The position numbers and the translations under genes are program-made. This document shows, one piece after another, positions 6,835 through 52,659 of a DNA stretch of 64,000 nt. Each line of letters starts with the position of its first letter. Within the stretch, counting starts at the first letter, position 1. Below the pieces are notes generated by a model, which made no database searches, was not told where the DNA came from, and saw only the letters and a program-made list of their open reading frames with translations. Origin of the DNA: an uncultured Clostridia bacterium (GTDB taxonomy: Bacteria > Bacillota > Clostridia > UBA1381); contig CANQJC010000004.1 in NCBI GenBank assembly GCA_947624165.1, forward strand, positions 1-64,000, read 5' to 3'.

Positions 6835-7242
6835 ATGATGTATTTTGCGGCGGTTGCCGTCATAATTGCCACGACGCTCGCGTTTGTGTTGTTCGCAAGC
6901 GGAGAATCGGACGTGAAGAACATTGAGTTTTTAAAAAACTACGGCTGGGAAACCGATACGCGCGCCGTCGAGCGCGAGGAGATCACGATTCCCTGTCCGC
7001 TTGACAGAGTGTACGAGAATTACAATGAAATACAGCTTCGCGCGGGTCTTGATATATCGCGGTATGCCGGAAAAGATGCGGTGAGGTTTACGTATATCGT
7101 GAAAAACTATCCCTGCGACGTGGGCGAGGAGGTACGCGCCAATGTGATATGCGTCGGCGGCGAGCCGGTCGCGGGCGATATTATGACGGTCAGCGTGAAC
7201 GGATTTATGCATTCGCTCCGATTTGACGACGCGAAGAAATAA
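6835..7242 (+). CDS. DUF4830-like membrane-anchored protein
   Basis: About 135 residues: one N-terminal membrane span (about 3-23) and an extracytoplasmic domain starting with a region Leu-Lys-Asn-Tyr-Gly-Trp that resembles DUF4830 proteins of Clostridia. No function is known. In-frame ATGs occur at 6817, 6820, 6835 and 6838. A TATAAT at 6799-6804 places the transcript start near 6811, leaving only 6 nt before 6817, while GGGGAG at 6822-6827 fits 6835; I therefore choose 6835, without a recognisable -35. Confidence 0.65.
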   Translation: MMYFAAVAVIIATTLAFVLFASGESDVKNIEFLKNYGWETDTRAVEREEITIPCPLDRVYENYNEIQLRAGLDISRYAGKDAVRFTYIVKNYPCDVGEEVRANVICVGGEPVAGDIMTVSVNGFMHSLRFDDAKK

Positions 7243-7300
7243 AAATTGCCCGATTTAATATTTTTAACCGTATCAAAAAAATATACTGAAAATATGCACA

Positions 7301-7354
7301 AAAATTTCATTGGAATTTCTACAAATTTGTAGAAATTTTAATGAAATTTTTTTC
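7301..7354. terminator. AT-rich 25-bp palindromic terminator
   Basis: The arms 7301-7325 and 7326-7350 pair along their full length (two G-U pairs) to give an almost perfect 50-nt hairpin, followed by T7 in total on the plus strand and with A-rich sequence on the other side. It should end transcription of the DUF4830-like gene just before the S10 promoter. Confidence 0.75.
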
Positions 7355-7363
7355 TTGAAAAGC

Positions 7364-7392
7364 TTGCCAAACGGCTTGAAATCATGTATAAT
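7364..7392 (+). promoter_or_regulatory. Sigma-A promoter of the S10 operon
   Basis: TTGCCA (7364-7369), exactly 17 nt, then TATAAT (7387-7392). No other promoter this good is seen up to rplQ, so it may drive the whole 16-kb block, possibly with internal help. The expected start is near 7399. Confidence 0.85.
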
Positions 7393-7398
7393 AGTCGT

Positions 7399-7767
7399 GT
7401 TGTGACCTTACGCGGGTGAAATGCGCCCCGCGTAACAGGACTGATAAACGATGAAACGGGAGGTTGCGGCGGAAGGGTTTCAAAAAGCCCGACGAAGCCG
7501 GTTTTTCCGCGGAGTGAGTCCGATTCATGAAACCGGGCGGCAGTTAAGTATTCGTGCGCTTTAGGTGTTTTGCGCCCGCGGCTCTGACGCGGAGCGCGGC
7601 GATGAAGCGCGCGGTGAAAATTGACTAACTTTGCCCGAATATACGATAAAAAACGATATTCGGGTTTTATTAAAGGGTGATGCGAAACACCCGGCGGTGT
7701 GTGCAATTTTCTTTATGCGCTGTCGTGCAGAACTACAACACAATAAAATTTTCAAGGAGGGAAAAGT
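7399..7767 (+). promoter_or_regulatory. Structured leader of the S10 operon with attenuator-like hairpin
   Basis: About 370 nt of untranslated leader. It contains a 9-bp hairpin (7408-7416 with 7427-7435), a CCGGTTT/AAACCGG long-range stem, and a 9-bp hairpin (7634-7642 with 7656-7664) followed by TTTTATT that looks like an intrinsic terminator about 100 nt before rpsJ. Near 7688-7691 a CACC can pair either with GGTG of 7676-7679 upstream or GGTG at 7696-7699 downstream. Ribosomal leaders often bind a product of their own operon (L4 in E. coli); which ligand acts here is unknown. Confidence 0.55.
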
Positions 7768-8082
7768 ATGGCAGCAAACCAGAAAATCAGAATTAAGCTT
7801 AAGGCTTATGACCATGTAGTGCTTGACCAGAGCGCGGAGAAGATCGTTGAGATCGCAAAGAGAACGGGTGCCAAGGTATCGGGTCCCATTCCCCTGCCCA
7901 CGGACAAGGAGATCATAACGATTCTGAGAGCGGTCCATAAGTACAAGGACTCGCGTGAGCAGTTCGAAAGAAGAACTCACAAAAGACTGATCGATATAGT
8001 TGTTCCTGGTGCAAAGACCATGGAATCGCTTATCAAAATAGATTTACCGGCCGGCGTAGAAATAGACGTTATCCAGAAGTAA
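7768..8082 (+). CDS. rpsJ: 30S ribosomal protein S10
   Basis: 104 residues, the family's usual length, with the conserved RIKLKAYDH start and the VDIVVPG-type end region (residues about 78-84). S10 sits in the 30S head, binds 16S rRNA and in many bacteria also pairs with NusB in antitermination. AAGGAGGG precedes the ATG. First gene of the S10 operon. Confidence 0.98.
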
Positions 8083-52568: not shown

Positions 52569-52659
52569 GGAAGAGTATCGAAGTGGTTATAACGGCCCGC
52601 ACTCGAAATGCGGTGTACCCTAACGGGTACCGTGGGTTCGAATCCCACCTCTTCCGCCA
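52569..52659 (+). tRNA. tRNA-Ser (anticodon CGA)
   Basis: Acceptor GGAAGAG pairs with CTCTTCC, then G and encoded CCA. The anticodon arm CCGCA/TGCGG holds loop CTCGAAA with anticodon CGA at 52604-52606. A long variable arm (GTACCC/GGGTAC) marks a class II tRNA, and the T loop TTCGAAT is present. It decodes UCG. Confidence 0.96.

Follow-up and report, generated by a model that had tools for sequence, protein, structure and literature searches.

The described RNA closest to the leader analysed here is the S10-Clostridia r-leader, Rfam family RF03136. In the searched part of the paper by Eckert and Weinberg (PMC7247131) it is listed as not novel and as fundamentally the Firmicutes S10 r-leader, which the paper attributes to Yao et al. 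2007. In Escherichia coli the S10 operon is controlled by L4 through attenuation together with translational control; according to the passages searched (PMC10931766) the E. coli-like L4 site is not widely conserved, and has a late origin in the gamma-proteobacteria. The corresponding passages of a Clostridium difficile proteome study describe data that do not support an E. coli-like control by L4 (PMC3933415). The L10(L12)4 attenuator of Bacillus subtilis rplJL comprises an anti-antiterminator, an antiterminator and a terminator, and in the passages searched mutations, competitor oligonucleotides and binding assays are used to test these three structures (PMC4538822). No experimental demonstration of S10-operon control was found for this lineage or for the Firmicutes in the literature passages searched.

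The leader studied here lies in a window of 64,000 nt, this being the whole stretch of DNA analysed. It has in common with RF03136 the sequence and structure of the core, the position before rpsJ and the presumed r-protein ligand. It differs in that the 81-position match to the family stops at 7542, short of the terminator, of the 3′ strand of a long-range helix (P5) and of an element containing ACRC, and in that the core has an extra loop insertion and a 5′ hairpin of a type belonging to the genus. No description of the parts beyond RF03136 was found in the open-access passages and listings searched, and an earlier description is possible. This leader shares with that of E. coli, as described in the passages searched (PMC10931766), the operon and a terminator inside a long leader rich in structure; control at two levels operates there and is proposed here. 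An intrinsic terminator within the leader, as in the E. coli L4-controlled type, is predicted in the window. The anti-antiterminator, antiterminator and terminator plan of rplJL is proposed here by analogy, the operon, the protein and the RNA being different in that system (PMC4538822, in the part searched). Judged from folding and comparison, we hold with moderate confidence that the S10-operon leader would act as a three-state autogenous attenuator responding to an r-protein, built around the RF03136 core and followed by a second structured domain.

Loci from 60 relatives, 80 named records and 86 class-level entries were compared with the window. The S10 gene was used to orient 224 leaders (the window, 58 relatives, 80 named records and 85 class-level leaders); L126, L147 and L177 are without an S10 match and were left out. 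The 224 were chosen for their position before rpsJ, and thus do not exclude sites elsewhere. Pattern anchoring was achieved for 131 of them. Of the 93 that were not anchored, 31 are Bacilli leaders whose core contains the element; the element can also be seen in many of the remaining 62. Following removal of L124 and L251 as mis-anchored, the remaining 129 collapse to 77 non-redundant leaders. The 31 records are those that we take to be from Bacilli on the basis of the genus names in their titles. The initial annotation had suggested comparative folding of rpsJ leaders in Clostridia. Comparison of the leaders supports a conserved core, a terminator in 49 of the 77, the element and P5.

Upstream of the leader, between a DUF4830 gene and the rpsJ promoter, there is an AT-rich palindrome (7303–7348) followed by TTTTTT. 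This is probably the terminator of the DUF4830 gene, and four members of the genus (L113, L114, L116 and L122) have a similar sequence at the equivalent place. The promoter is of the sigma-70 type, TTGCCA-17-TATAAT (7364–7392, forward strand), with 11 of 12 consensus matches. It is the sole match between 7000 and 8300 when both strands are scanned; by itself it is within chance, because shuffled sequence yields a mean of 2.1 matches of equal quality. It recurs in the nearest leaders, where TATAAT is followed 3–12 nt on by GTTGTGAC in 34 of 59 (window counted). This arrangement is rarer elsewhere, occurring in 4/49 other non-Bacilli named records and 6/85 class-level leaders. From the TATAAT at 7387–7392 we infer a leader of 369 nt on the forward strand (7399–7767). 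Its folding energy is −132.7 kcal/mol (z = −2.95), and none of 100 shuffled sequences folds as low. The promoter and the structured leader that had been annotated before S10 are both borne out by these results. Close to its 3′ end the leader carries the ribosome-binding site GGAGGG (7756–7761, forward strand, read from the sequence), and passes into rpsJ itself (7768–8082, forward strand; S10, Pfam PF00338), the first gene of a block that continues with L3, L4, L23, L2 and S19.

Starting at the 5′ terminus, the RNA forms a hairpin (7407–7436, forward strand) in the window fold. By eye this appears to be genus-specific, no such hairpin being apparent in the remaining family members inspected in that way. 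The GGACT that follows (7438–7442) can pair with AGTCC at 7517–7521, in competition with the 3′ hairpin of the core; by eye this too is confined to the genus.

The core (7442–7542, forward strand) occupies the first half of the leader and is a member of RF03136, which the initial annotation had overlooked. The leader class is therefore already catalogued and is not new. The score of 36.0 bits exceeds the gathering threshold of 35.1 narrowly, while relatives reach 53.8 bits. As in the family, the match is placed directly upstream of rpsJ, and no other site in its own genome scores over the RF03136 cut-off. Among 101 genomes (own included) RF03136 is found in 85 at E ≤ 1 and over the cut-off in 77; a class-level search finds it at E ≤ 0.01 in 134 of 196 genomes, and over the cut-off in 96. 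S10 lies near the match in 58/60 loci of relatives, the other two being interrupted by the end of the contig. One genome (G030) has two matches over the cut-off, C63:3377-3459 (52.7 bits) and C15:217-297 (44.8 bits), which may reflect an additional S10 leader or else a contig that is a contaminant. A scan of the window against Rfam at gathering returns RF03136 and one tRNA only; a tRNA gene is located at 52569–52656 (forward strand).

The 3′ hairpin of the core (7518–7538, forward strand), formed by GTCCGATT and AACCGGGC, is the proposed anti-antiterminator. It was examined by a permutation test on 66 distinct hairpins, 18 of them from Bacilli, selected for GTC...GRC ends. In the minimum-energy fold all 66 pair these ends, and the fourth pair is C-G in 51, U-A in 7, U-G in 5 and A.G in 3. 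With Bacilli ending in AGGC included, the pairing within leaders was reached by none of 10,000 permutations; before these were added it was reached by 598 of 10,000. With Clostridia alone and ungapped, the 8-bp hairpin falls short of significance on three of the four measures.

Further along the strand, the RNA forms a predicted intrinsic terminator (7633–7671, forward strand), identified from the fold and by comparison within the family. The stem comprises 9 bp between CCCGAATAT (7634–7642) and ATATTCGGG (7656–7664), extended by G7633–T7665 and two inner pairs. The hairpin has an energy of −14.4 kcal/mol and is followed by TTTTATT (7665–7671), so that the 9-bp hairpin with its T-rich tail is just as originally described. 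A terminator scanner limited to loops of 3–8 nt did not list the hairpin at 7633–7665. Defining a terminator as a hairpin of −6 kcal/mol or better with a T-rich tail, located between core and element, we find one in 49 of the 77 non-redundant leaders, compared with a mean of 12.1 and a maximum of 16 in 10 rounds of dinucleotide shuffling. The place of the terminator is close to fixed. In 47 of the 49 leaders the tail starts 18–25 nt before ACRC, with a mode of 22 (21 leaders); the two outlying distances are 28 and 65 nt. Shuffled sequences have a spacing of 15–25 in a mean of 1.2 leaders (maximum 4). The distance of ~22 nt from tail to element is held across very different lineages. The stem sequences vary widely, with the stem and the T-rich tail retained. 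For an RNA ending at the U-tract the terminator state has a probability of 0.89 in the window, and a median of 0.95 over 43 leaders. In several class members with a short leader (L201, L203, L205, L224, L229, L241 and L250) a run of at least six A, seen by eye, stands shortly upstream of ACRC, at the place of the U-tract in others.

The 5′ arm of the terminator is predicted to pair with CGGGC (7534–7538, forward strand), the proposed antiterminator strand, in the core. When the transcript of the window is cut before the 3′ arm, the first six bases of the 5′ arm pair with the GGGC region of the core with a mean probability of 0.83. The energy and spacing limits left 43 of the 49 terminator leaders for prediction of pairing, and 45 for counting complementarity. 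The pairing is predicted at a probability above 0.3 in 24 of the 43, and not in the remaining 19. Complementarity of at least 4 bp between the arm and the core strand is present in 41/45 leaders vs 98/170 other terminators matched for GC; when at least 5 bp are required the two sets differ little (27% vs 21%). GCCC occurs among the first six bases of the arm in 33% of leaders and 6% of other terminators. The Fisher value of 1.6e-5 and the permutation values overstate the case, because the compared leaders are related, and the core strand hardly varies, so that the GGGC/GCCC pairing offers no covariation to weigh. The putative antiterminator rests on this enrichment, and the predicted terminator and core hairpin are supported.

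It is conceivable, and in our judgement rather unlikely, that the terminator is constitutive or partly efficient and simply fixes the fraction of read-through, any regulation being translational and operating via the core and the element. In keeping with this, the terminator is the stable state at the U-tract by the probabilities given above, 28 of the 77 leaders have the core and the element but no terminator by the rule, and in Bacilli the core is close before the ribosome-binding site. Regulation can evidently do without a terminator, given those 28 leaders and the arrangement in Bacilli, and by the same 28 attenuation is not class-wide. Set against this, 5′ arms that complement 4 bp of the core strand are over-represented, and the terminator has a place relative to the element that is fixed beyond the needs of an unregulated stop.

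Following the U-tract the RNA enters a region that can fold in two ways. Hairpin H1 (7675–7692, forward strand) is based upon GGGTG and CACCC, and was seen in the family by folding and comparison. The conserved element ACRCnnGG...GUGU (7687–7702, forward strand) can form hairpin H2; it was defined by pattern counts and alignment. In the ensemble of the full leader CACC (7688–7691) pairs with GGTG at 7676–7679, inside GGGTG/CACCC, with a probability of 0.66–0.68, and with GGTG at 7696–7699 with a probability of 0.32. The CACC can thus pair with either GGTG, as the initial annotation had noted. What it missed is that both pairings sit downstream of the U-tract. The CACC is transcribed only after the polymerase has cleared the terminator, and its assigned role as the attenuation switch is not supported. 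Like the switch, the element and the P5 3′ strand exist only in transcripts that have read through, so that none of them can decide termination. The attenuation proposed for the S10 block has comparative support, from a terminator that keeps its place in 49 of 77 leaders and from a core upstream of it; the CACC switch is reassigned to a second domain, which would act after read-through.

The element was counted in 140 core-anchored non-Bacilli leaders having enough sequence. Downstream of the core a loose pattern is found in 129 of these (7.3 in shuffles, maximum 11), and a strict pattern in 99 (0.2 in shuffles, maximum 1). A 17-base pattern of the element is found in 37 of the 61 genomes searched, a single time in each, and the same pattern reversed matches in 4 of 61. 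Thirty-five of the 37 matches lie just downstream of an RF03136 match that shares their contig and strand; the contigs of the remaining two (G034 and G069) have no RF03136 match. A model of the 3′ domain built from sequence only (R1) has matches at E ≤ 0.01 in 9 of 199 genomes of the phylum, weak save in its own genome, and is uninformative on distribution; at E ≤ 1 it matches this locus only in its own genome. In Bacilli the element is located differently. It is within the hairpin loop of the core in 31/31 Bacilli-titled records and 0/49 other named records, and the element word stands after GGTTGC or GGTTAC. Two leaders (L160 and L245) appeared to have the element both in the core and downstream; this was rejected, since the downstream element merely follows a chance GGTTGC or AGTTAC.

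Alignment A1 comprises 30 leaders hand-chosen for the words of the element and TGTCG, so that conservation at these places is not independent; for the element the counts of pattern against shuffle serve as the control. The best register for H2 is +2, with 96.6% of cells paired, corresponding to ACAC 7687–7690 with GTGT 7699–7702. No covariation was found for ACRC/GUGU, and the test of H1 for covariation in the alignment was not significant. Covariation of H1 among 23 hand-picked leaders of the family and order was dropped, the full 5-bp helix being present in 15 against a permuted mean of 12.5 and maximum of 15 (1,000 rounds). Three of the 15 helices are GGGCG/CGCCC, and 12 have GGGTG with CACCC or CACCT. 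A pairing of CACCC with GGGT of the terminator was also rejected, as by eye L132, L138 and L146 carry GAGCTTTT there yet retain the element.

Beyond the element the strand can pair back to the core. Helix P5 is formed between CGGCAG (7538–7543, forward strand), comprising the last bases of the core (CGRC) and those following, and CTGTCG (7720–7725, forward strand), and encloses the terminator hairpin. Both strands derive from duplex permutation and shuffle tests. The mean duplex energy within leaders is −12.61 kcal/mol, compared with −10.19 (sd 0.27) with permuted partners and −10.12 when the leader's own partner strand is shuffled; not one permutation in 10,000 gives so low a mean. Helices of at least 6 bp anchored at the end of the core are found in 50 of the 77 leaders; the corresponding number is 17.6 (maximum 24) when the own strand is shuffled, and 27.8 (maximum 39) when strands are taken from other leaders. 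In only 14 of the 77 does the own partner rank within the top 5% of all partners. P5 also occurs with differing sequence, for example CGACTGGGTTCC with GGAACCGGGTCG in L241 and CAATTACTGT with ACAGTAATTG in L250. A second helix (P5b) is formed between GAAAATTG (7616–7623, forward strand) and its complement CAATTTTC (7704–7711, forward strand) in the window fold; by eye and without statistics, it is a family-level helix. P5 and P5b have probabilities of merely 0.13–0.14 in the full-length ensemble of the window, and because they are so minor there they rest on comparison and not on energy. In L204 and L206, as seen by eye, a GURCGU after the P5 strand is complementary to an ACGUAC immediately upstream of the ribosome-binding site, and other Clostridia may have a translational switch here.

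With the hairpin enclosed by P5, its main function could be that of a structural arm in one large protein-binding RNA comprising core, P5 and ACRC, with termination a minor matter. We regard this as improbable. The near-constant distance from hairpin to element across distant lineages would suit such an arm, and the U-tract is weak in some leaders (e.g. TTTAATAT in L039, from Acetivibrio straminisolvens); the stems diverge while a stem and T-rich tail are kept, and a structural arm has no need of a U-tract. We consider it most improbable that the ligand is something other than an r-protein, such as a small molecule or tRNA: the initial annotation allowed for another ligand and AAGGGTG resembles a T-box sequence, against which no riboswitch or T-box matches the window at gathering or 7200–7800 at E ≤ 5, and the sole over-cut-off RF03136 match in the genome is the one at rpsJ. 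That the ligand is an r-protein is the usual inference for such leaders, with L4 merely a candidate.

Three further candidates were rejected. A T-box leader is discounted by those same searches of the window and of 7200–7800. For a leader peptide, the conserved GAAACRCCCGG could be read as E-T-P-G with some changes synonymous; in the window an in-frame TGA lies just upstream, separated by a single TGC, and 30 of 49 leaders have a core loop whose length is not divisible by three (19/15/15). In a coarse test for rRNA mimicry two 23S loci of the genus contained neither the core pieces nor the element with its GUG, and had only bare ACRCnnGG words. The word GCTGTCGT is presumably also a 16S rRNA word, for which P5 pairing is the simpler explanation.

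The three-state attenuator could operate as follows. The core folds into two hairpins, as in the Rfam model, the 3′ hairpin having the support of comparison. When the r-protein is scarce, the GGGC of the core (7535–7538) would pair with the GCCC of the terminator (7633–7636), so that no terminator forms and the polymerase reads through. When it is in excess, the protein would keep the core 3′ hairpin (GUCC.../...GGGC) shut, leaving GCCC free, and transcription would stop before rpsJ. In this way the core hairpin, antiterminator and terminator are proposed to be the three states of an attenuator as in rplJL. In the read-through RNA CUGUCG pairs with CGGCAG of the core as P5, a pairing for which there is comparative support, and this may place the ACRCnnGG...GUGU hairpin beside the core. 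The read-through RNA may thereby rebuild a complete protein site, giving a second level of control, over translation or RNA decay. Such a site is proposed because in Bacilli the element hairpin belongs to the core itself, and control from the completed site would resemble that by L4 in E. coli. More tentatively, the Firmicutes S10 r-leader may have a two-part protein site in general outline of this kind, with the same protein acting at termination and then on the read-through RNA.

The analysis suggests that the leader is larger than the catalogued motif, with a built-in terminator and a piece beyond it that pairs back. The enlarged model specifies the strands (GGGC/GCCC, CGGCAG/CUGUCG and ACRC/GUGU), and from roughly two thirds of the compared leaders (49/77) it predicts a short transcript ended by termination. 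Between two bacterial classes one regulatory module appears to change its position, being found to either side of a terminator or within the core. If the two-part site is correct, ACRCnnGG...GUGU would be held within the core in Bacilli, and in Clostridia would lie past the terminator and be returned via P5. The entire S10 block would then be under a two-checkpoint autoregulator, reading a half-site first and the completed site second.
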